Of a stretch of 33,528 nucleotides of DNA, positions 1,069 through 23,922 are shown piece by piece. The stretch covers positions 1 to 33,528 of the forward strand of contig JANTGG010000019.1 of the NCBI GenBank assembly GCA_024763035.1, read 5' to 3'. Each line of letters starts with the position of its first letter. The first letter of the stretch is position 1. The stretch is from Desulfocapsa sp. GTDB lineage: Bacteria > Desulfobacterota > Desulfobulbia > Desulfobulbales > Desulfocapsaceae. Made by a program: the position numbers and the translations under genes. Under the pieces are notes generated by a model. That model searched no databases. It worked only from the letters and a program-made list of their open reading frames with translations, and was not told the origin of the DNA.

Positions 1069-2145
1069 ATGCAGGATCAGGAATTTAACGTCATAGAAAA
1101 AAAGGTTCTTGCCGGAGATCGCATCAGTGATCAGGAGTTTCTGGACCTTGCTCAGGATGCGGATCTGTACCAGCTGGCATTTCTTGCTAATGGTGTCCGG
1201 GAACGATTGCATCCGGAAAAGCTGGTAACCTATGTCATTGACAGAAATATCAACTATACCGATATCTGTATCTCAGCCTGTAAATTCTGTGCATTTTTCA
1301 AAGCTCCCGAAGATAAAGATGGCTATCTGCTCAGCCATGAGGAACTTGGTGAAAAGATAAAAGAGACTCAGGATCTTGGTGGAACACAGATCCTCCTCCA
1401 GGGCGGGCTCCATCCCGATCTTGAGCTTGAATATTATGAGGATATGCTGCGCTTTATGAAAGGGACAGGTATTCATATCCATGGTTTCTCCCCGCCTGAA
1501 ATTTTTCATTTTGCAGAAATATCAAAATTACCCATAAGCCTTGTTATTGAACGGCTGATTGCTGCCGGGCTTGACTCCATTCCCGGTGGCGGCGCCGAGA
1601 TCCTGAGTGATCGGGTACGAGAGTCAACCGCACCTCGTAAGTGCACTGCAGATCAGTGGCTGGAGGTGATGGAAGAAGCCCATTCTCAGGGACTGCGAAC
1701 ATCTGCCACCATGATGTTCGGGCATGTGGAAACCCTTCAGGAACGTTTGGAACATCTGCGCAGGCTTCGTGATCTGCAGGATAAAACATCCGGCTTTACT
1801 GCCTTTATTCCCTGGCCGTTCCAGCCTGATCACACAGCCTTAACCGAACAGCTCACCATCGAAAAGACCACAGGTTTTGCCTATTTGAAAATGCTTGCCC
1901 TGTCCCGTATCTATCTGGATAATTTTGATAATGTACAGGCATCCTGGGTTACCCAGGGACCGAAGATCGCCCAGCTTTCCCTGTTTTTTGGAGCGAATGA
2001 TTTTGGCTCCACCATGATAGAAGAAAACGTGGTCGCTGCTGCCGGAGTCAGTTTCCGTCTTTCAGAAAAAGAAATCCGCACCCTTGTAACCGATGCCGGT
2101 TTTCAGCCGCATCAGCGTTTGATGGACTACACCCTCGTCTCCTGA
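1069..2145 (+). CDS. mqnC: Cyclic dehypoxanthinyl futalosine synthase MqnC
   Basis: Second radical SAM enzyme of the futalosine route. The family cyclises dehypoxanthine futalosine to the spiro compound that MqnD later cleaves. The 358-residue product has the CxxxCxxC motif at C67, C71 and C74 (CISACKFC), the QGGLHPDLELEYYEDM stretch typical of MqnC, and SIPGGGAEIL further on. Length is normal for the family. The ATG at 1069 follows a GAGGTG ribosome-binding site with about 6 nt spacing. The gene lies 14 nt after mqnE and 9 nt before mqnX, which implies one transcript. It resembles mqnE throughout (same fold, shared SIPGGGAE segment), and the two are best told apart by the segment after the cluster motif. 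Confidence 0.93.
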   Translation: MQDQEFNVIEKKVLAGDRISDQEFLDLAQDADLYQLAFLANGVRERLHPEKLVTYVIDRNINYTDICISACKFCAFFKAPEDKDGYLLSHEELGEKIKETQDLGGTQILLQGGLHPDLELEYYEDMLRFMKGTGIHIHGFSPPEIFHFAEISKLPISLVIERLIAAGLDSIPGGGAEILSDRVRESTAPRKCTADQWLEVMEEAHSQGLRTSATMMFGHVETLQERLEHLRRLRDLQDKTSGFTAFIPWPFQPDHTALTEQLTIEKTTGFAYLKMLALSRIYLDNFDNVQASWVTQGPKIAQLSLFFGANDFGSTMIEENVVAAAGVSFRLSEKEIRTLVTDAGFQPHQRLMDYTLVS

Positions 2146-2154
2146 AGTGAAGTC

Positions 2155-3402
2155 GTGGTCTCAAACTCTCTGCAAATATACAGAGCGCCCTGGGTTGTTC
2201 CCGTGTCTGCGCCCGTCATTGCCGACGGAGCAATTGTAACCGACGGGCAACACATCCTCTCTGTTGCCTCCTGGTCTGCTGTCCGTACAGACTACCCTGA
2301 TATTCCCGTTTGTTTTTTTGATGGTGTTTTCCTTCCTTCCCTGGTGAACAGCCATATTCATCTGGATCTTTCTGTTCTTGGCACGATAGCACCCAAAAAT
2401 CCTGAAGATCCCATGTGTGACTGGATTCGCAGTCTGATGCAGAGACGGATGGGTGCTGATTTCTCAAGGGATGATATGCAAAAGTCCGCAGAAGCTGTCA
2501 TACAGGATCAGTACCAATCCGGAGTGGGAATCATGCTGAATATCAGTAACGCTGAGATTCAGCATGAGAACCATCCCCTGGAGATCATATCACTTCTTGA
2601 ACTCCTTGCTCCTACAAAGGCTGGTCAGCAGGCAGTCATTGAATCGATCAGAACAGAAGATGGAAACAAACAGCTTACTGCCCATGCCCCTTATTCCACA
2701 GGCCCTGAGCTCCTTTCCTTTATCAAAAAACATTGTAAAAAACAAAATTCCCTGTTTTCCCTGCATCTTGCCGAAAATGAAGATGAATATGCACTGCTGG
2801 CAGATGGTGAGGGATGTTTTGTTGGCTTTTTACAGAACCTTGGAGCAATGGATGGGACCTTTCCCATTCCCATCGTAAAAAAGAAGGGAATGCTTGCCTA
2901 TCTGGATGATCTGCAACTGCTCGATGAAAAAACCCTCTGTGTTCATTGTGTGCATCTGGATGAAGAAGAGATTGCACGCCTTGCAGAAACGGGTGCCCAT
3001 ATCTGTCTTTGTCCCGGAAGTAACAAATTTTTAAATGTGGGGAGCGCAGCCGTTGAGTCAATTCTGGCAGCAGGTGTTACCCCTGCAATAGGTACCGATT
3101 CCATTGCCTCAAACCCAAAACTGGATCTTTGGCAAGAGATGTCTATTATTGCCCGGGAGCATCCACAGGTCGGAGCAGAAGATATCATCCGGATGGCAAC
3201 TGTAAATGGGGCAGAAGCCCTTGGGGTTCAGGATACATATGGCTCTCTTGCATCCGGAATGGGAGCGCGATTTATTGGGCTGAAATCTTCTGTTTATGAA
3301 ACTGCAAAAAGTGTTGATGAACTTCTCGGATTACTGGTGTCCTCCGGACGGCCGGAAGAGATCGTCTGGCTGGGAAGTCCCGACCGGGAAGGGATGCGGT
3401 AG
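2155..3402 (+). CDS. mqnX: Aminodeoxyfutalosine deaminase MqnX (amidohydrolase family)
   Basis: Metal-dependent amidohydrolase of the ATZ/TRZ-cytosine deaminase group. Visible landmarks are the HxH metal site in NSHIHLDLS (H67, H69), a third histidine in SLHLAENEDEY, a histidine in CVHCVHLDEEE, and the aspartate in IGTDSIASNPKLDLW. In this operon the natural role is deamination of 6-amino-6-deoxyfutalosine to futalosine, the step between MqnE and MqnB. That role is inferred from the neighbours, because the family also contains guanine, SAH and other deaminases. Translation appears to start at GTG 2155, nine bases after mqnC, with only a weak purine-rich site before it. The 415-residue length is normal. 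Its TAG stop overlaps the GTG start proposed for mqnA, consistent with translational coupling. Confidence 0.8.
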   Translation: MVSNSLQIYRAPWVVPVSAPVIADGAIVTDGQHILSVASWSAVRTDYPDIPVCFFDGVFLPSLVNSHIHLDLSVLGTIAPKNPEDPMCDWIRSLMQRRMGADFSRDDMQKSAEAVIQDQYQSGVGIMLNISNAEIQHENHPLEIISLLELLAPTKAGQQAVIESIRTEDGNKQLTAHAPYSTGPELLSFIKKHCKKQNSLFSLHLAENEDEYALLADGEGCFVGFLQNLGAMDGTFPIPIVKKKGMLAYLDDLQLLDEKTLCVHCVHLDEEEIARLAETGAHICLCPGSNKFLNVGSAAVESILAAGVTPAIGTDSIASNPKLDLWQEMSIIAREHPQVGAEDIIRMATVNGAEALGVQDTYGSLASGMGARFIGLKSSVYETAKSVDELLGLLVSSGRPEEIVWLGSPDREGMR

Positions 3403-4253
3403 TGACCATGGAACAGGAATTGCGACAAATTCAAATTGGGATGGTTAATTTTATAAATACTGCTCCCATCTATGAAACCTGGAAAACCCGCCCCCATCCC
3501 CCAAACTGGAATGTCGTTGAAGCCCCGCCTGCAGTTCTTAATCATATGCTTGCCGCAGATAAGCTGGATCTTGGCTTTGTTTCTTCCTATGAGTACTGTA
3601 TCCGTCCGGATAAATATCGAATCCTGTCCCGCTTGTCCATCAGTGCCAATGGTTCCGTGGGCTCGGTGTTTCTATTTCTTCGTACTGATCCTGAGCGGTT
3701 GAACGGCAGAACGATCCTTCTCAGCGGGCAGTCTGAAACGTCCATCTGTCTGGTGAAGATTATCCTCGAAGAATTTTACAAGGTTTCGCCGCACTATATT
3801 GTGGGTGATGTGAACAGCGAGCAGGCAGAGGAGGTCGACGGGATTCTGGCCATAGGCGATGAAGCCCTTCGACTTTCCTCGGGCAAGGAATTTATGCATC
3901 AGCTGGACCTTAGTGAAATATGGTGCAGACACACAGATCTTCCCTTTGTTTTTGCAGTTTGTGCTGTGCGCGAGGAATTTTATCAGGAGTTTGGCGACAC
4001 TGTTGCTGCCATCCACCACGAATTTCTAAACTGCAGGGAAGAGGGGAGGGTGAACCTTGAATATATCTGCAGCGATGTCGCGCCGCGTATTCCAATGCAT
4101 CCCGACGAATGTTATGTGTATCTGCGTGCAATAGAGTATGATCTTTCCCAAAGAAAACAGCTTGCCCTGGAAACATTTTTTCAGTATCTGATTAAACGAA
4201 ACGAAGCCGATCCCGCATCACTCCCATTAAAAATAATAGAGAGCAGGCAGTAA
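3402..4253 (+). CDS. mqnA: Chorismate dehydratase MqnA
   Basis: First committed enzyme of the futalosine pathway: it dehydrates chorismate to 3-(1-carboxyvinyloxy)benzoate. The protein has the MqnA/MqnD periplasmic-binding-like fold, recognised from the N-terminal IGMVNFINTAPIYE segment, the LDLGFVSSYEY stretch and a DEALRL segment. At 283 residues it has the usual size. Two starts compete: GTG 3402, overlapping the mqnX stop, and ATG 3408. A purine-rich GGGAAGGGA at 3386-3394 lies 7 nt before the GTG but 13 nt before the ATG, so the GTG is preferred. The choice adds only two residues. MqnA is separated from its MqnD paralogue, which is not in the window. Confidence 0.88.
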   Translation: MTMEQELRQIQIGMVNFINTAPIYETWKTRPHPPNWNVVEAPPAVLNHMLAADKLDLGFVSSYEYCIRPDKYRILSRLSISANGSVGSVFLFLRTDPERLNGRTILLSGQSETSICLVKIILEEFYKVSPHYIVGDVNSEQAEEVDGILAIGDEALRLSSGKEFMHQLDLSEIWCRHTDLPFVFAVCAVREEFYQEFGDTVAAIHHEFLNCREEGRVNLEYICSDVAPRIPMHPDECYVYLRAIEYDLSQRKQLALETFFQYLIKRNEADPASLPLKIIESRQ

Positions 4254-4259
4254 TAAATC

Positions 4260-4829
4260 GTGAAAAAGAAAAAAATTCTTATCGGTGTTACCGGTGCTTC
4301 AGCAATGCTGTTTCTCCAGTCATTTCTTGAGATGCTTGCAGGAGAAGATGTTCTGCTGCATGGAGTTTGCTCAGAAGCCGGGGAAAAGGTGCTGGGACTG
4401 GAACGGGAATGTTCTTTTAAGGATCTTCCTGCGGTTGTAAAATGGTTCGATGAAAAGGATTTCACAGCGCCTCCTGCGTCAGGTTCTTCCGGGTACGATG
4501 CTATGGTGATTATTCCCTGTTCCATGGGAACCCTTGCCTCCATTGCTTCCGGTATCAGTGCGAATCTCATTCACCGTTCTGCAGATGTCCTGTTAAAAGA
4601 ACGAAAACCGCTGCTCCTTGTTGTAAGGGAAACACCACTCAACAGAACGCATCTGCAGAATATGCTCACCGTTCACGATGCAGGTGCAACCGTATGTCCG
4701 CCGCATCCCGGCATGTATCTGAAACCTGCAAGCCTTGAGGATGCCGCCAGAACATTCTCCTGGCGGCTTGCAGATCAGCTCGGAATACAAATAAATGAGA
4801 GAAAACGATGGGGACAGGAGCAGAGCTGA
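4260..4829 (+). CDS. ubiX: UbiX-family flavin prenyltransferase (menaquinone cluster member)
   Basis: Member of the UbiX/Pad1 flavoprotein family, which prenylates FMN to make the cofactor of UbiD-type decarboxylases. Diagnostic segments are the N-terminal IGVTGASA, the PCSMGTLASIASGISANLIHRSADV stretch (read in two parts: PCSMGTLASIASG and ANLIHRSADV), VVRETPLN and PHPGMYLKP. The 189-residue length is typical. The start is GTG 4260, six nt after mqnA, with no good ribosome-binding site, suggesting coupling. In this operon it presumably supplies prenyl-FMN to the UbiD-like decarboxylase that acts on prenylated dihydroxynaphthoate. That decarboxylase is not in the window. Its TGA stop overlaps the mqnP start as TGATG. 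Confidence 0.85.
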   Translation: MKKKKILIGVTGASAMLFLQSFLEMLAGEDVLLHGVCSEAGEKVLGLERECSFKDLPAVVKWFDEKDFTAPPASGSSGYDAMVIIPCSMGTLASIASGISANLIHRSADVLLKERKPLLLVVRETPLNRTHLQNMLTVHDAGATVCPPHPGMYLKPASLEDAARTFSWRLADQLGIQINERKRWGQEQS

Positions 4830-5683
4830 TGCTTAAAAAAATTGCTGTTCTTCTTGAGATGATCAAGTTCAAGCTGACCATCTTTGCCATGCCCTTTGCC
4901 TTTATGGGGACATTTCTTGGAGCACGAGGTATTCCTGCATTACGAGTGTTTTTGCTTGTTATCCTTGCCATGGTCGGAGCAAGGACCTGTGCCATGGGAT
5001 TTAATCGTATTGTCGATGCCAGATTCGACAAGGCAAATCCCCGTACTGCAAACAGGGCAATTCCCGCCGGCAGTGTCAGTATGGTTGAAGCATGGAGTAT
5101 GGTGATAATCGCCGGGCTTTTATTTTTTACTGCCGCCTGGATGTTAAATCCACTGACCTTAAAGCTTGCTCCATTTGCCCTTGGCCTTACCCTTTTTTAT
5201 TCACTCACCAAACGATTCACATCCTTTTGCCATCTGATACTCGGTGTGGCCCTTGCCTTTTCTCCTCTGGGCGGATGGGTTGCCGTTCGTGGAAGTGTTG
5301 CCTTTTTCCCCTGGGCGTTGTCTGCTGCCGTGCTTTTCTGGGTTGCAGGCTTTGATACCGTCTATGCCTGTCTGGATGCAGAGTTTGATAAAAAAACAGG
5401 GCTGCATTCACTTCCTTCTGCCATCGGTTCAAAGAACGCCTTTCGGCTTGCTGCTGTTTTTCACTGTATTGCATTTGCCCTGTTCCTATATACAGGGATA
5501 CAGGCAGAACTGAATGCAGCCTATTTTGTTGGTGTCGCTATTGCGGCGGGAGCTCTTTTTTACCAGCACCGGATTGTTAATCCTGACGATCTGTCCAGGG
5601 TACAGGGTTCGTTTTTTTCCATGAACGGTTTTATCAGTCTTGTCCTCTTTTTTGCAACCTGGCTTGCCCTTATCACCGGATAA
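4829..5683 (+). CDS. mqnP: UbiA-family 1,4-dihydroxy-6-naphthoate prenyltransferase MqnP
   Basis: Integral membrane prenyltransferase that attaches the polyprenyl tail to the naphthoate ring late in the futalosine pathway. The two acidic motifs that bind the prenyl diphosphate through Mg2+ are visible: NRIVDARFD near residue 55 and DAEFD near residue 180. Most of the rest is hydrophobic, with about eight likely membrane helices. The start chosen is ATG 4829, because AGGAG at 4816-4820 sits 8 nt upstream and the product then begins MLKKIAVLLEMIKF, as family members do. The in-frame ATG at 4808 would add seven residues without a ribosome-binding site. It overlaps the ubiX stop by one base. The MqnP rather than UbiA role is inferred from the mqn neighbours. 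Confidence 0.88.
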   Translation: MLKKIAVLLEMIKFKLTIFAMPFAFMGTFLGARGIPALRVFLLVILAMVGARTCAMGFNRIVDARFDKANPRTANRAIPAGSVSMVEAWSMVIIAGLLFFTAAWMLNPLTLKLAPFALGLTLFYSLTKRFTSFCHLILGVALAFSPLGGWVAVRGSVAFFPWALSAAVLFWVAGFDTVYACLDAEFDKKTGLHSLPSAIGSKNAFRLAAVFHCIAFALFLYTGIQAELNAAYFVGVAIAAGALFYQHRIVNPDDLSRVQGSFFSMNGFISLVLFFATWLALITG

Positions 5684-12032: not shown

Positions 12033-13229
12033 TCAGAAAACCATTGAGGCATCACGAACAATGGCCTTCATTTCCCGCACGGCCTGATCCAGTCCGACAA
12101 AAACTGCCCGTGTGATGATTGCATGACCTATGGAAAGCTCTTCTATGGTGTCAAGAGCAGCAATACGTGCTGTGGTCTGATAGTCAAGACCGTGACCGGC
12201 ATTGATGCGTAAGCCCATCTGGTAAGCAGCTTCTGCGGCTTCTGCAATTTGCTGATACTCATTCTCCTGTGTTTCCTCACTCACAGCGTCACAGTATTTG
12301 CCGGTGTGCAGCTCAACATAGGTCGCTCCAATATCGAGTGATGCCTTTACCTGTTTGCGCTCGGGATCAATGAAGAGTGAAACAGGGATGCCAGCCTTTG
12401 TGAATCTGGCGATGGTTTTGGCAAGCTTCTTTTTTTGTCCGGCAACATTCAGCCCGCCCTCTGTGGTCAGCTCCTGACGTTTTTCAGGAACCAGGGTTAC
12501 CATATCCGGTTGAAGATCAAGGGCAATACGGATAATTTCCTTGTTTGCACCCATTTCCAGGTTCATTCTGGTTTTTATGGTCTGCCGCAGCAGCCGCACA
12601 TCCCGGTCGTTGATATGACGTCTGTCTTCACGAAGATGGACAACAATTCCTGCAGCACCGGCTAATTCACAAATAGATGCTGCAGCCACCGGATCCGGTT
12701 CGGTGATGCCTCTAGCTTCTCGTATGGTGGCTACGTGGTCGACATTAATTGCGAGTTGGGTCATTTGTGTACTCCGGGATGTGTATAGCTCTTGCATGAG
12801 ATCCGCTTCCAGATCCCACATTTCTTCAGCTTCTTTTTCCGATCGCTCATGGTCGTATCCAAGTAAATGGAGGAGTCCATGGGTGATAAGCCATGTCAGC
12901 CGGTGGTGCAGGCTAACGTCCATCTCTACTGCTTCTTTTTGGGCGGTTTCCACGGAGATGATAATGTCGCCGAGCTCCCGTTCAGAAATTGTGTTTAAAA
13001 GCAGAGAGTCCTGGTCGTTCAGGGGAAACGAGAGAACATTTGTGGCTCCGTCCCTGTTCCGATACTGCTTGTTCATCCAGCCGATTTCCTGATCATCAGT
13101 AAAGAGGATGGAAACCCCATGGTCGGCAGTCTGTAATTTCTCCATCAGTAAAGCGGTACGTCGCTGCAGGAGTTTTTTGCAGAGATTGAATTTTGCTGGA
13201 TCTCTGTTGAATGTAAATACAGCAGTCAT
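12033..13229 (-). CDS. ybeY-pdxJ: YbeY-PdxJ fusion: rRNA maturation endoribonuclease + pyridoxine 5'-phosphate synthase
   Basis: One uninterrupted frame encodes two normally separate proteins. Residues 1-155 are YbeY, a zinc endoribonuclease of 16S rRNA maturation, with the metal motif HGLLHLLGYDH. Residues 156-398 are a full-length PdxJ, which makes pyridoxine 5'-phosphate from deoxyxylulose 5-phosphate and aminoacetone phosphate, starting MTQLAINVDHVATIREARG with later VVHLREDRRHI and GHGLDY. There is no stop or linker between them. The PdxJ part keeps its own ATG at 12764 with CGGAG and 7 nt spacing, so free PdxJ may also be made. ATG 13229 gives a normal YbeY N-terminus, while the frame's upstream TTG at 13292 would overlap phoH. 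It follows phoH by 25 nt in the common phoH-ybeY order. Confidence 0.88.
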   Translation of the reverse strand: MTAVFTFNRDPAKFNLCKKLLQRRTALLMEKLQTADHGVSILFTDDQEIGWMNKQYRNRDGATNVLSFPLNDQDSLLLNTISERELGDIIISVETAQKEAVEMDVSLHHRLTWLITHGLLHLLGYDHERSEKEAEEMWDLEADLMQELYTSRSTQMTQLAINVDHVATIREARGITEPDPVAAASICELAGAAGIVVHLREDRRHINDRDVRLLRQTIKTRMNLEMGANKEIIRIALDLQPDMVTLVPEKRQELTTEGGLNVAGQKKKLAKTIARFTKAGIPVSLFIDPERKQVKASLDIGATYVELHTGKYCDAVSEETQENEYQQIAEAAEAAYQMGLRINAGHGLDYQTTARIAALDTIEELSIGHAIITRAVFVGLDQAVREMKAIVRDASMVF

Positions 13230-13234
13230 GGTTT

Positions 13235-13264
13235 GCAGTTTATTTTTTTGCAGTTTATTTTTTT
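13235..13264 (-). repeat. 15-bp tandem duplication at the phoH/ybeY junction
   Basis: On the minus strand the unit A7-TAAACTGC occurs twice exactly, head to tail. The first copy contains the phoH stop codon, and the second lies between phoH and the ybeY start, adding a second TAA in the phoH frame. It displaces the ybeY start from phoH and removes any obvious ribosome-binding site. Confidence 0.85.
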
Positions 13265-14211
13265 TCGTAAGCGGCGATGATTTTCTGCACAAGTGGATGC
13301 CTCACCACGTCATGTCTGGAAAAATGACAGAAACCGATGCCGTCAATTTTTTTAAGAAGATTCTTCGCCTGCAGCAGTCCGGAAACCTCTGGACGCGGCA
13401 GGTCAACCTGGGTGACATCACCTGTGATTACGGCGGACGAATCGAATCCTATTCTTGTGAGAAACATCTTCATCTGCTCCCTGGTGGTGTTCTGTGCTTC
13501 GTCAAGAATTATAAATGCATCATTTAATGTCCTTCCTCGCATAAAGGCAAGCGGGGCAATTTCGATAATTCCCTGTTCCAGCATACGTTCACTTTTCTCA
13601 GATCCGAGCATATCGCTGAGAGCATCATAGAGTGGCCGCAGGTAGGGGTTGACTTTCTGGGCAAGATCACCCGGAAGAAACCCGAGCTTTTCACCTGCTT
13701 CAACGGCGGGACGGGTGAGGATTATGGATTTGACCTGACCGCTGGTGAGTGCGGAAACAGCCATGGCAACGGCAAGATAGGTTTTGCCGGTACCGGCAGG
13801 TCCGATACCGAAGACAATATCTCGGTTGCGGATGGCGTCGATGTAGGTTTTCTGATTTTGGGTTTTGGGAGAGATTATGCGGTTTTGGGCAGTGATGTAA
13901 ACCTTGTCCAGAAAGATCTTGTCGAGTTTGCACGCGGGTGCTTTTTCAAGACAGCGCAACCCGAAGGAAAAGTCGGAACTGTATACCTGAAATCCTTTCC
14001 CGATCAGGGAATAGAACTGTTTGAGCAGATTGGCAGCAAGATCAACCTCATGCCCAAGGCCAACGATATTGATACCGTGACCCCGGACATGGATCTGAAC
14101 TCCTGTGTTCTGTTCAATCAGCAGGAGATTTTTGTTGAACTCTCCGTACAGAACTCCGGCAAGGGTGTTGTCCGGAAAGGAGAGCTTCCTGCTCACTTCT
14201 GTTACTGCCAT
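13255..14211 (-). CDS. phoH: PhoH-like NTPase
   Basis: Cytoplasmic ATPase of the PhoH family, thought to act in RNA metabolism. The 318-residue protein has an N-terminal KH-like RNA-binding segment (about residues 25-90), the Walker A motif GPAGTGKT near residue 137, TRPAVEAGEKLGFLPGD, the Walker B region FIILDEAQNTT and the sensor-type VITGDVTQVDLP. Its ATG overlaps the stop of the upstream Dsb gene as ATGA, with AAGG a few bases upstream, so translation is coupled. The phoH-ybeY neighbourhood is common in bacteria and supports a shared rRNA or ribosome-quality role. Function beyond that is inferred. Confidence 0.92.
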   Translation of the reverse strand: MAVTEVSRKLSFPDNTLAGVLYGEFNKNLLLIEQNTGVQIHVRGHGINIVGLGHEVDLAANLLKQFYSLIGKGFQVYSSDFSFGLRCLEKAPACKLDKIFLDKVYITAQNRIISPKTQNQKTYIDAIRNRDIVFGIGPAGTGKTYLAVAMAVSALTSGQVKSIILTRPAVEAGEKLGFLPGDLAQKVNPYLRPLYDALSDMLGSEKSERMLEQGIIEIAPLAFMRGRTLNDAFIILDEAQNTTREQMKMFLTRIGFDSSAVITGDVTQVDLPRPEVSGLLQAKNLLKKIDGIGFCHFSRHDVVRHPLVQKIIAAYEKK

Positions 14212-15083
14212 CAGCCTTTTTTCTTATCGGCAAGCTGTGCGTCAATAAGTTTCTGGATAGCCGGCAGGGTACGGGTTTTGAGCTTGATTCCGTTAATAAA
14301 GATGGTTGGTGTACCGGTAACCCCGGCTTCTCTTGCGTCACGCAGATCCTTGTTGAGTTTCTGGGCAAGTTTCTGGGATGCCACATCTTTTTTAAACTTA
14401 TCAGTATCAAGTTTAAGGTTTACCGCGATGGTATCGATGGCTTCCTGACTTAGCTTCGGAAGTGCAAAAAGTTCATCATGAAATTCCCAAAACTTCCCCT
14501 GTTCCTTGGCTGCTAATGCGGCAAGGGCTGCGGGCGCTGCCATCTTATGAAAATTAAGCGGCATATTTTTAAGAACGATTTTAACTGTATCGGGATTATT
14601 CTCGAGCACCTGCTCAAGTAGTGGCACTGCTTTGCCACAGTGAGGTCACTCAAAGTCCGTGAATACAGCAATGGTAACCGGCGCATCAACCTTTCCAACA
14701 AAGGGCGAACCTGTGATGTCAATATCTGCAAAAAAACTTATGGAAAGGTCGGTGAAGGTTTTGGCATCCTGGTCGATCAGGTATAATTTTTCACCACGGG
14801 GGGCAATGTCAATGGCTGTCACGCCACTGTTGACCGGGATTTCACCAAGAAGATTGCCTTTTGCCGTATAGACCATTACCTTCTGGTTTTCAGTGAGAAT
14901 GAAAACCCGTTTCCCGTCAAGGGAGTGAACGATATCCAGCGGCTTGGCTGACAACTTCCAGTCTCTTTCCACTTCCCACTGAATTTTGGACGAATCCGAA
15001 GCGGCGGAACTCGCAAAACTGTGTAGAGGTGAGAAAGAAAGCATGAGCAGACTGCATACAGCTACGCAATATTTGAGCTTCAT
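14211..15083 (-). CDS. DsbA/DsbG-like thiol-disulfide oxidoreductase, probable selenoprotein (Sec-Pro-His-Cys active site)
   Basis: Read through one in-frame TGA (14648-14646), this is a 290-residue protein. A signal peptide (about residues 1-25) is followed by ~100 residues with beta-propeller-like repeats (LDIVHSLDGKRVFIL, AIDIAPRGEKLYLI), then a DsbA-like thioredoxin fold: APVTIAVFTDFE, the UGA, PHCGK, and the cis-proline segment TGTPTIFING near the C-terminus. The UGA sits exactly where the first cysteine of a CPHC motif belongs, so Sec146 is expected. Both halves are incomplete alone: the upstream ORF stops at the active site and the downstream one lacks a signal peptide and the first strand. 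Hairpins downstream of the UGA could be the SECIS. ATG 15083 has GAGG upstream. It heads an operon with phoH. Confidence 0.85.
14601..14638 (-). promoter_or_regulatory. Candidate bacterial SECIS region
   Basis: Two possible hairpins lie just downstream of the in-frame UGA. The first (14638-14621) pairs GUGGCA with UGCCAC around a 6-nt loop, starting 7 nt after the UGA. The second (14618-14601) pairs CUUGAGC with GCUCGAG (7 bp including one G-U) around an AGGU loop, about 34 nt after the UGA. An apical GGU/GU is typical of bacterial SECIS loops, which favours the second, though its distance is at the upper end of the usual range. Which of them SelB reads cannot be settled from sequence. Confidence 0.5.
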
Positions 15084-15668: not shown

Positions 15669-15714
15669 TATTTTATCATTAATCGATCATGAAAATTACT
15701 AAAGGATGAACAAG

Positions 15715-17040
15715 ATGGAAGTCGTCGTTGAAGAAGTTAGTGCGCTCACCAAAAAGCTTACTATTACACTGCCCGAGAAAGATGTTCAGAAGAAGCTGAA
15801 AAAAGCATATGATAAGCTTCAGCGTGAAAGCAAGATGAAAGGCTTTCGTCGTGGGAAAGTGCCCCGTTCCATTATTGTAAAAAGCTATAAGCACGAGGTT
15901 GAAGCTGAAATCGGAGAAAAGCTGGTCCAGGAGAGTTATTTCGATGCGGTTGAACAGGAAAATATTGACCCCGTCGTCCATCCCGATATCTCCGCTCCCC
16001 GGTTCAAAGAAGATGGTACTTTTGAATATGTGGCAAATGTCGATATACGCCCCGAGTTTGAGCTTGGAGAGTATAAAGGACTTGAAGTGGAGGAAATCTC
16101 CTCCGAGGTGAGTGATGCTGCCGTGGAAGTTGAAATCGAAGAGCTGCGGCGCAGCATGGCTCCCCTGAAAACAGTTGCTGACAGAGCCATAGCAGAAGGT
16201 GATGTTATCGTTGTTGATTTTGAAGGTTTTCACAATGGAAAGGCAATGAAAGAGGTGAAAAACGATAACTATTCTGTAGATGTGGGCAGTGGAAAGCTCA
16301 GTCCTGAGTTTGAAGAAAAACTTGTTGCAATGAACAGTGGAGAAGAGGCAAATCATGAAGTTGATTTTCCTGCAAACTATGCCAACCCTGTACTTGCCGG
16401 GAAAAAAATCGAGTTCCGGGTGAAAGTTAAAGAAGTAAAGGAGCGTGTTCTACCCGAGCTGAATGACGAATTTGCCAAAGATGTGGATCAGGCTTATGAG
16501 ACATTTGCAGATTTACAGAATGCCATTCGTGAGCAGCTTCAGGAGCAGAAAGAAAGTAAGGCTGAGGGAGACCTCACTGACCGCATTATGCTGAAACTCC
16601 TTGAAAATCATGAATTTGAAGTCCCCGAGCGCCTTGTTCGTTATGAGGTGGAGGAGATGATCAAGAATACCGAAAAGTCTCTTGAAGAAAGCGGCATGGA
16701 TTTGGAATCCGCCGGGATAAATCGTGAAGAACTTGCTGAACGCAGCAGGGAGACAGCTGAAAAACGAGTCCGCGGAGATTTCGTTCTGAAAAAGATCGCT
16801 GATGTGGAAGACATCAAAGTAAAAGATGAAGATATGGATCGTGCTTTCAAACGCATTGGCGACCAGTATAATATGCCTGTTGCCCAGGTAAAAGAATACT
16901 TCGGTAGTCGTGATGATCTGCTTCCGTTCATGAACGAGATTCTCAACGAGAAAATTCTCACCTTTCTCCGCGAAAATGCCAAATTTGTAAAGGCTGCCTC
17001 TGCTGAGACAACGGAAAATGCAGCAGAAAATGCAGAATAA
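15715..17040 (+). CDS. tig: Trigger factor
   Basis: Ribosome-bound chaperone with peptidyl-prolyl isomerase activity. The 441-residue product shows the three-part layout: an N-terminal ribosome-binding domain with the signature FRRGKVPRS near residue 45; a central FKBP-type domain (about 150-245) containing GDVIVVDFEGFHNGK and FEEKLVAMNSGEE; and a long helical C-terminal chaperone domain rich in Glu and Lys, ending in an acidic/Ala tail. ATG 15715 is preferred over ATG 15706 because AAAGG at 15701-15705 touches the first but is 9 nt from the second. It begins the common tig-clpP-clpX-lon order and is probably co-transcribed at least in part with clpP. Confidence 0.95.
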   Translation: MEVVVEEVSALTKKLTITLPEKDVQKKLKKAYDKLQRESKMKGFRRGKVPRSIIVKSYKHEVEAEIGEKLVQESYFDAVEQENIDPVVHPDISAPRFKEDGTFEYVANVDIRPEFELGEYKGLEVEEISSEVSDAAVEVEIEELRRSMAPLKTVADRAIAEGDVIVVDFEGFHNGKAMKEVKNDNYSVDVGSGKLSPEFEEKLVAMNSGEEANHEVDFPANYANPVLAGKKIEFRVKVKEVKERVLPELNDEFAKDVDQAYETFADLQNAIREQLQEQKESKAEGDLTDRIMLKLLENHEFEVPERLVRYEVEEMIKNTEKSLEESGMDLESAGINREELAERSRETAEKRVRGDFVLKKIADVEDIKVKDEDMDRAFKRIGDQYNMPVAQVKEYFGSRDDLLPFMNEILNEKILTFLRENAKFVKAASAETTENAAENAE

Positions 17041-21786: not shown

Positions 21787-21956
21787 ATTCTCCCCACACT
21801 GATCCCACCCTTGCAAAGACCATCAAATGTGATGGCATCGTAAAGACTCTCCTCCATTCATTACGGTTTTCAGGCTTGTGGTTTTATGATGCAAGTCTTT
21901 CTCTCAGTACGTTTACACCATGGAATTTCACCTGCCACATGTTTTGCAGATAATCC

Positions 21957-21984
21957 TTTACCTTTTGGAATTATAGGATATTAT
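21957..21984 (+). promoter_or_regulatory. Candidate cooS promoter
   Basis: TTTACC (21957-21962) and TATTAT (21979-21984) are separated by 16 nt, ~63 bp before the cooS start. The rest of 21787-22047 shows no gene; it holds only the tail of the tRNA terminator and AT-rich leader. I cannot identify a CooA/CRP-type operator with confidence. Confidence 0.35.
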
Positions 21985-22047
21985 TTACATTACATAGCAA
22001 CAAATCTCTGCCCGATTCATTCAAAACAAACAGAAAGAGGATACAAA

Positions 22048-23922
22048 ATGCCCGAGAAAAACCAAAATATTGATGAGATGACGATTTGGGAAGATGCTAA
22101 ACAGATGCTGCGTAAAGCAGAAAAAGAAAACATTGAAACCGCGTGGGACAGGCTTCAGAAACAGACCCCCCACTGTCAATTTGGAGAAGGGGGAATCTGT
22201 TGCCGGATATGTACCATGGGGCCCTGTCGCATCGGAAAAAAAGCATCCAGGGGAGTATGCGGTGCCGACGCCGATGTTATCGTTGCGCGCAATTTCGGAC
22301 GTTTTATCACCGGTGGTGCAGCCGGTCACTCCGATCATGGCCGTGACTGCATTGAAGCATTGCACGCAGTGGCACATGGAGAAACAAAAGATTACGAGAT
22401 TAAAGATAAAGAGAAGCTCCTGAGAATAGCAGAAGAAGTCGGTATCAACACCAATGATCGTGATTATCTCGATGTTGCAAAAGACCTTGCTGCAGAATTT
22501 TTCGAAAATTACGGAACCACCAAAGGAGCAGTCTCCTTTGCCTCACGGGTCCCTGAAAAGAGAAAGGAGCTGTGGAGCAGTCTCGGTATTACCCCACGTG
22601 GTGTTGACAGAGAGATTGCCGAAATGATGCATCGAACCCACATGGGATGTGACAATGATGCTGCCAACACCATGCTCCATGCCGCACGCACCTGTCTTGC
22701 AGATGGTTGGGCGGGGTCCATGATTGCCACTGAAATTTCAGATATATTGTTTGGTACGCCAAGCCCCCGCAAGGCAAAGGTGAATCTTGGAGTATTAAAA
22801 GAGGATCAGGTTAATATCCTTGTTCATGGACACAATCCCATCGTTTCCGAGAAAATCCTGGAAGCCGTTAATGATCCGGAGCTCGTAGCACTGGCAAAAG
22901 AAAAGGGTGCTTCCGGAATTAATCTTGCTGGTCTTTGTTGCACAGGTAATGAGCTTATGATGCGTCGTGGCATCCCGATGGCAGGGAATCATCTTATGAC
23001 TGAGCTCGCCATTATAACAGGAGCCGTGGAGATGATCATTGTCGATTACCAGTGCATCATGCCAAGTCTTGTCCAGGTGGGATCCTGCTATCATACAAAA
23101 ATGATCACCACTGCAGATAAGGCGAAATTCACCGGTGCTGAGCATGTTAAATTCGAGATGCATAACGGGATGGAACAGGCACGAAAGGTTGTCAGAAAGG
23201 CTGTCGAGCTGTACGAGTTCCGGGATCGAAACCGTGTGCAAATCCCTGGTGAACCGGTGGACATAATGACCGGATTTTCAAATGAAGCGCTTCTCCAGGC
23301 CTTGGGCGGATCGCTCACACCGCTGATAGATGCCATCAAGGCGGGCAAGGTACGCGGTGCTGTCGGTATCGTTGGCTGTAACAACCCCAAATACAAACAT
23401 GATCACTGCAATGTCAATCTGGCAAAAGAACTGATTAAGCGTGATATCCTTGTACTTGCCACAGGTTGCGTGACCACTGCTACAGGAAAGGCCGGCCTGC
23501 TTGTTCCGGAAGCCATTGATACAGCAGGACCTGGACTGAAGGAAGTTTGCGGTTCTTTAGGTATTCCACCGGTACTGCATATGGGAAGTTGTGTGGACAA
23601 TGCACGGATTCTTCAACTCTGTGCTCTGCTTGCCAGTGAGATAGGTGTCGATATCTCCGATTTGCCGGTGGCTGCGTCCTCGCCGGAATGGTATTCCGAA
23701 AAGGCTGCCGCAATAGGAACCTACGCAGTTGCATCCGGAATCTATACACACCTCGGACACCCGCCAAATATAACCGGCTCAAAACTGGTTACCAATCTCG
23801 CATTATCCGGTCTCGATGATCTGCTGGGTGCCTGCTTTGTTGTAGAACCCGATCCGTTTAAAGCGGCAGAACTGATAGATAAAAGAATTGGTGCCAAACG
23901 GACAGCTCTTGGACTTGTATGA
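22048..23922 (+). CDS. cooS: Anaerobic Ni-Fe-S carbon monoxide dehydrogenase catalytic subunit CooS
   Basis: Oxidises CO to CO2 or runs the reverse, as a homodimer. Iron-sulfur ligands are visible: C43 and C51 for the bridging D cluster, and C52, C55, C60 and C71 for the B cluster. The Ni-Fe-S C-cluster ligands appear in order as the histidine of HGHNPIVSEKI and cysteines in GLCCTGNE, DYQCIMPS, VGCNNPK, ATGCVTTATGKAG and MGSCVDNARI. The 624-residue length is typical. ATG 22048 is chosen because AAAGAGG lies 7 nt upstream; the 54 residues in frame before it have no family character. No cooF, cooC or acs genes adjoin, so electron partner and nickel-insertion helper must be elsewhere. A terminator overlaps its stop codon, making it monocistronic. 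Confidence 0.95.
   Translation: MPEKNQNIDEMTIWEDAKQMLRKAEKENIETAWDRLQKQTPHCQFGEGGICCRICTMGPCRIGKKASRGVCGADADVIVARNFGRFITGGAAGHSDHGRDCIEALHAVAHGETKDYEIKDKEKLLRIAEEVGINTNDRDYLDVAKDLAAEFFENYGTTKGAVSFASRVPEKRKELWSSLGITPRGVDREIAEMMHRTHMGCDNDAANTMLHAARTCLADGWAGSMIATEISDILFGTPSPRKAKVNLGVLKEDQVNILVHGHNPIVSEKILEAVNDPELVALAKEKGASGINLAGLCCTGNELMMRRGIPMAGNHLMTELAIITGAVEMIIVDYQCIMPSLVQVGSCYHTKMITTADKAKFTGAEHVKFEMHNGMEQARKVVRKAVELYEFRDRNRVQIPGEPVDIMTGFSNEALLQALGGSLTPLIDAIKAGKVRGAVGIVGCNNPKYKHDHCNVNLAKELIKRDILVLATGCVTTATGKAGLLVPEAIDTAGPGLKEVCGSLGIPPVLHMGSCVDNARILQLCALLASEIGVDISDLPVAASSPEWYSEKAAAIGTYAVASGIYTHLGHPPNITGSKLVTNLALSGLDDLLGACFVVEPDPFKAAELIDKRIGAKRTALGLV

Follow-up and report, generated by a model that had tools for sequence, protein, structure and literature searches.

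Selenoproteins of the DsbA-like and DsbG-like kinds, in which selenocysteine (Sec, U) occupies the first position of a UxxC motif, have been in print since 2005–2006 (Sargasso Sea 2005, PMC1088965; PMC1794560), and the DsbA-like ones are covered in reviews (PMC9312934, PMC13188914). In the bacterial model given in one of these, the Sec insertion sequence (SECIS) has a stem of 4–16 bp, a loop of 3–9 nt with a G in its first two positions, a distance of 16–37 nt from the UGA and a minimum free energy (MFE) of ≤ −7.5 (PMC13188914). DsbA-like trimeric isomerases have also been described, namely ScsC of P. mirabilis and C. crescentus and Wolbachia alpha-DsbA2, whose oligomerising extension is alpha-helical. 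Here we report the analysis of a putative selenoprotein gene from Desulfocapsa sp. in which a DsbA-like UPHC domain is preceded by a propeller-like fragment. The whole stretch of DNA that was analysed, hereafter the window, comprises 33,528 nucleotides of contig JANTGG010000019.1 (GenBank assembly GCA_024763035.1). An initial annotation made from the letters of the window had proposed a periplasmic DsbA-like oxidoreductase with Sec at its active site, remarking that thioredoxin-fold UxxC selenoproteins are known in bacteria, as the above literature bears out.

An in-frame UGA within a DsbA-like gene

The coordinates given in the initial annotation were correct, and the strand, which it left unstated, is minus. 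Translation of 15083–14214 with TGA read as U gave 290 codons from the ATG at 15083, the sole internal TGA being codon 146. The following features were assigned.

14211..15083, minus strand: selenoprotein gene encoding a signal peptide, a two-blade propeller-like domain and a DsbA-like thioredoxin-fold domain; 290 codons, stop TGA
15012..15083, minus strand: probable signal peptide, residues 1–24, judged by eye (predicted local distance difference test score, pLDDT, <50 over residues 1–28)
14742..14942, minus strand: two-blade propeller-like domain, residues 48–114, seven predicted strands (structure prediction and fold search)
14214..14726, minus strand: DsbA-like thioredoxin-fold domain, residues 120–290
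14646..14648, minus strand: in-frame UGA, codon 146, almost certainly read as Sec (UPHC), from the aligned codons of homologous loci
14637..14639, minus strand: Cys149, second active-site residue of UPHC, invariant in 52/52 aligned rows
14601..14618, minus strand: putative SECIS hairpin with loop AGGU on a 7-bp stem, the loop 34 nt after the UGA (rule match and covariation)
14621..14638, minus strand: further local hairpin, on the UGA side of the SECIS hairpin, not conserved and probably not the element
14307..14309, minus strand: Pro259, taken as the cis-proline by homology and preceded by Thr258; Pro invariant in 52/52 aligned rows
14213–14211, minus strand: terminal TGA of the gene, overlapping the ATG of phoH

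The sequence around codon 146 reads TDFE-U-PHC, placing the TGA at the first position of a CPHC-type site as the initial annotation had claimed, and the motif TGTPTIFING occurs in the same protein. Its claim of coding character on both sides also held, with Pfam Thioredoxin_4 spanning the TGA (read as C) at 87.8 bits over residues 126–282 and DSBA (PF01323) doing so at the lower score of 65.8 bits (cut-off 25.6). The two fragments that it expected from a gene caller were likewise obtained, translation table 11 splitting the gene into open reading frames (ORFs) at 14646–15083 (145 aa) and 14211–14627 (138 aa). Taken alone, an open frame flanking a TGA is weak evidence, as open stretches of at least 70 codons flank 17 TGAs of the window on both sides. 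The codon-146 TGA stands above chance because Thioredoxin_4 spans it, the aligned codon is always TGA, TGC or TGT, and a hairpin obeying the SECIS rule is present.

The full set of Sec genes, which the initial annotation had proposed to look for and whose absence would have counted against it, was found in the genome with each member over its family cut-off: selC encoding tRNA-Sec (74.8 bits, cut-off 47), selA (596.9 bits, cut-off 267.9), selB (370.4 bits, cut-off 242.25) and selD (377.4 bits, cut-off 125). The selD frame (L018; G000:C25:2835-3770, minus strand) itself contains one in-frame TGA, and its product is probably a selenoprotein as well.

Selenocysteine or cysteine in homologues

Homologues were expected to carry Cys or Sec at the position of codon 146, and across 81 loci (51 from genome contigs and 30, with the own copy among them, from an order search) the aligned codon was TGA in 52, TGC or TGT in 29 and anything else in none. 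Part of these loci are the same gene from two collections, leaving 71 distinct proteins. The occurrence of TGA at the same codon in many other species' assemblies makes a sequencing error very unlikely, and speaks against the misreading of TGC or TGT that the initial annotation had named as its possible undoing. The frame of the Sec relatives that were read continues to the normal end, except in the contig-cut L067 and L069 and the shorter L086, and the Cys versions retain the full-length protein. In a protein alignment of 52 of the 71 distinct proteins, from which fragments and domain-only rows were excluded, 22 columns were invariant, 17 of them at or after the UGA codon.

An enlarged set of 90 distinct proteins (59 TGA, 24 TGC and 7 TGT) was assembled by leaving out L085–L101 and adding 40 hand-picked stretches, 20 with a TGA (including L121, which has Cys at codon 146) and 20 without; because of this picking, the Sec:Cys ratios in the set, and in the tree and switch models, are not frequencies. 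The omitted L085–L101 comprise 16 Cys loci, whose match starts at residue 96 or later, and the Sec row L086. These 17 loci and L102–L109 are absent from the 90-protein set, the tree, the synonymous-codon test and the switch models. Three rows are special cases: L109, although reported with one TAG, proved in the alignment to be an intact Cys version; in L121 the TGA is located at the end of the match, codon 146 being TGC; and L108 has a second TGA close to the C-terminal end of the match.

Named loci with an identity of ≥63% number 11, and eight of them are labelled Desulfocapsa. Matches at E ≤ 1e-10 were found in 247 of the 257 genomes of the order, some of which will be other DsbA proteins. 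As a table-11 ORF finder halves the gene, the Sec forms are likely to be mis-annotated across the order. In a plasmid search 1652 records matched, each over less than 80% of the query.

A SECIS hairpin maintained where UGA is used

The hairpin at 14618–14601 fits the bacterial SECIS model in every respect, with an MFE of −8.6 kcal/mol. Among the 17 TGA-split frames of the window, only the codon-146 TGA is followed by such an element; among all 1306 TGAs in any frame on either strand, scanned for perfect stems, 38 have one, and the terminal TGA of the gene does not. In an alignment of 42 distinct Sec rows, pairing holds in 96.6% of cells and three of the seven pairs are changed on both sides, compared with 17–52% pairing when the register is slid by 1–3, and an unguided consensus fold recovered six of the seven pairs. 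Two observations weigh against the hairpin as the element: the Sec row L075 carries one stem mismatch, and the outermost stem pair is broken in nine of the 42 rows.

Six or seven of the seven pairs are retained in all 59 Sec rows, while the mean is 4.06 in the 31 Cys rows that share the architecture, the hairpin being largely eroded in the Cys relatives. Synonymous-codon draws encoding the same peptides, with the codon usage of 11 window genes applied to all rows, gave 4.22 expected pairs against 6.61 observed in the Sec rows, and 3.63 against 4.06 in the Cys rows. The excess in the Sec rows indicates that the RNA, beyond the peptide, is constrained where UGA is used. The nearer hairpin at 14638–14621 was rejected as the SECIS, just 71.8% of its cells being paired across the 42 Sec rows; its registers −3 and +3 pair at 68.3% and 61.5% and covary better than the unshifted register.

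Taken together, these data point to a real selenoprotein gene rather than a pseudogene or a sequencing error, and there is little room for doubt that codon 146 encodes Sec. It is strongly supported by the sequence comparisons that the UGA would be decoded by SelB and tRNA-Sec, directed by the hairpin 34 nt downstream.

The N-terminal two-blade fragment

Whole-model fold searches matched mainly the thioredoxin part, and the N-terminal part was handled alone. Modelled and searched in this way, its first Foldseek match was 6R5X (E 4.4e-4, template modelling score 0.68 by target), whereas 6r5x was not among the 50 matches listed by VIA-align. Both blade sequence and fold agree with a beta-propeller of the WD40/YVTN-like type, with E-values in one of the analyses behind this assignment summed over repeats. 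No N-terminal Pfam family scored above cut-off in the five N-terminal parts scanned. The propeller-like segment of the initial annotation is thus refined to two predicted blades, and its signal peptide was upheld by eye. The arrangement that it called less familiar turned out not to be peculiar to this genome, being common to homologues in the same order and beyond, and our search of open-licence papers found no DsbA or Sec protein of this propeller-bearing architecture.

Monomer models predict two blades per chain, and a closed ring of at least four blades would take several chains. Two-blade propeller fragments assembling as tetramers have been described (6R5X; eLife 2019, PMC6805158). Whereas those were made in the laboratory from WD40 propellers, the present fragment is natural, and its assembly is hypothetical. 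By analogy with the N-terminal extensions of trimeric ScsC and alpha-DsbA2, the most likely role of the fragment is to hold subunits together as a ring, although a propeller closed from several chains is put forward tentatively, at somewhat less than even chances.

A probable disulfide reductase or isomerase, and alternative explanations

From the fold and motif, Sec146 would attack or accept disulfides, which Cys149 would resolve. No match to DsbB or VKOR was found at E ≤ 0.001 in the genome, a 92%-complete assembly, but a DsbD_TM (CcdA-type) protein adjoins an apparently exported thioredoxin there, which makes reduction or isomerisation of disulfides more likely than their formation. Relatives are mixed, 64 of 93 family genomes lacking both DsbB and VKOR over cut-off (a tally combined by hand, with 21 genomes having VKOR matches below cut-off only). 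The DsbA-like protein nonetheless has matches at E ≤ 1e-10 in 89 of the 93, though some of these may belong outside its subfamily. Moreover, Thr258 precedes Pro259 as Thr191 precedes cis-Pro192 in the isomerase CcScsC (PMC8900818). We therefore favour, with some reserve, a reductase or isomerase over an oxidase; the term DsbA-like of the initial annotation holds for fold and family and should not be taken to mean oxidase.

The alternative that survives best is a true Sec protein acting as a DsbA-type, disulfide-making oxidase, its membrane partner being one not found here or not yet known. The site is of the CPHC type found in E. coli DsbA, the closest folds in the whole-model search include BdbD, and in genome G143 a Sec paralogue (L104) sits next to dsbB. 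Set against the missing DsbB and VKOR matches, the many family genomes that combine a DsbA-like match with neither partner and the Thr before the conserved Pro, we regard this as a serious minority possibility, at roughly one chance in three.

Decoding of UGA is inefficient in bacteria, and the codon might act mainly as a stop or as a selenium-dependent switch, so that the chief product would be an exported fragment with the propeller alone and Sec read-through would come second; the concentration of invariant columns at or after the UGA codon and the full-length Cys versions make this very improbable. The least credible alternative is a pseudogene, a sequencing or assembly error, with TGA arising from TGC or TGT by misreading or mutation, or a pair of separate genes. 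The two table-11 ORFs speak for it, but the same-codon TGA in 52 of 81 loci, many from other species' assemblies, the covarying hairpin, the phoH neighbour in 48 of the 51 loci L021–L071 and the Sec frames running to their normal end leave it scarcely tenable.

The protein is probably an oligomeric Sec disulfide reductase/isomerase. As a whole, a periplasmic Sec DsbA-like reductase/isomerase with propeller-joined subunits is held with good, though not high, confidence as the best explanation. More speculative, and unlikely to hold in all its parts, is the joint proposal that the two-blade fragments self-assemble (four chains giving eight blades, or three giving six) into a ring presenting several Sec DsbA domains, which would serve as a periplasmic, selenium-based isomerase of disulfides in anaerobes often without DsbB and VKOR, and that many independent Sec-to-Cys replacements have left decaying SECIS hairpins.

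Sec-to-Cys replacement

An 88-protein tree (57 Sec and 31 Cys; midpoint root, the short rows L067 and L122 dropped from the 90) needs 17 changes, at least 14 of them forced by well-supported branches. Log-likelihoods were −50.4 for loss only from a Sec root, −66.3 for gain only from a Cys root, about 16 log units worse, and −51.8 for both directions from a Cys root; Sec-to-Cys replacement is therefore needed, with the root state fixed neither as Sec nor as Cys. The inference is limited by the balanced row choice and the midpoint root. The hairpin is intact at 7/7 pairs in the Cys genes L033 and L038 of the genus group, clear remnants by the synonymous-draw test (P = 0.006 and 0.008), and L049, L143 and L144 keep six (P = 0.09, 0.11 and 0.05, not clear of chance), suggesting that the former two, and less clearly the latter three, are likely recent Sec losses. 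Such a mixed Sec/Cys family offers a good natural series on what selenium buys in disulfide exchange.

Genomic neighbourhood

13255..14211, minus strand: phoH, whose ATG overlaps the terminal TGA of the selenoprotein gene
12033..13292, minus strand: ybeY-pdxJ, one open frame with both YbeY and PdxJ matches
15706..17040, plus strand: tig (trigger factor), divergent neighbour

Upstream and divergent from the gene lie tig and then clpP, clpX and lon. In loci L021–L071 (n = 51), 48 of which have phoH next to the gene as noted above, tig is present in 39, and several of the loci end too soon to include it; neither phoH nor tig was found at any of the 30 loci L072–L101. The YbeY/PdxJ junction is stop-free in 16 of 17 relatives checked, L052 having one stop. 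In G143 (L104, 495-4371) the Sec paralogue lies between a cytochrome c assembly gene and dsbB; another DsbA-like protein and one of the AhpC-TSA/Redoxin type come after. These genes may form a cluster for disulfide and cytochrome c maturation. The neighbours of a Sec homologue at L068 (2605-3646), one a NosL protein (121.8 bits) and the other of the AhpC-TSA type, hint at a link to redox chemistry or to a copper site.

Elsewhere in the window, 1069-5683 (plus strand) has matches to CofH/MqnC, amidohydrolase, VitK2_biosynth, Flavoprotein and UbiA, which we take to resemble a futalosine-type menaquinone cluster, and the catalytic subunit of an anaerobic carbon monoxide dehydrogenase is encoded at 21886-23922 (plus strand; 725.3 bits). 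Scanned against Rfam at gathering thresholds, the window gave four tRNAs and nothing else.

Comparison with known systems

The Sec part of the gene is of a known kind, and its architecture was not found described in the open-licence literature searched. With the DsbA-like UxxC selenoproteins (PF01323) it shares the substitution of Sec for the first active-site Cys as well as a downstream bacterial SECIS; it scores above the PF01323 cut-off and has Cys homologues at the Sec position, but the printed descriptions seen, on which this comparison is based, mention no propeller part. The same UxxC and domain type occur in the NF041057 Rcas_1661 family (DsbG-like in PMC13188914), to which the protein does not belong as an equivalog (71.1 bits over residues 124–281, cut-off 190). 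The quinone-linked partner of the classical DsbA–DsbB or DsbA–VKOR system was not detected in its genome at E ≤ 0.001, and Helicobacter DsbI, a membrane partner bearing a propeller part, is a different protein. A 2006 survey reported mostly Cys-to-Sec change, with few Sec-to-Cys events, mainly in FdhA and SelD (PMC1794560), whereas the DsbA-like family here needs Sec-to-Cys replacement. The selenoprotein shares the DsbA-like catalytic fold of ScsC and alpha-DsbA2 but carries a two-blade beta fragment (seven predicted strands) in place of a helical extension, and Sec in place of Cys; a ring built from this fragment, if it forms, would amount to a means of oligomerisation unlike the helical ones printed for those isomerases.
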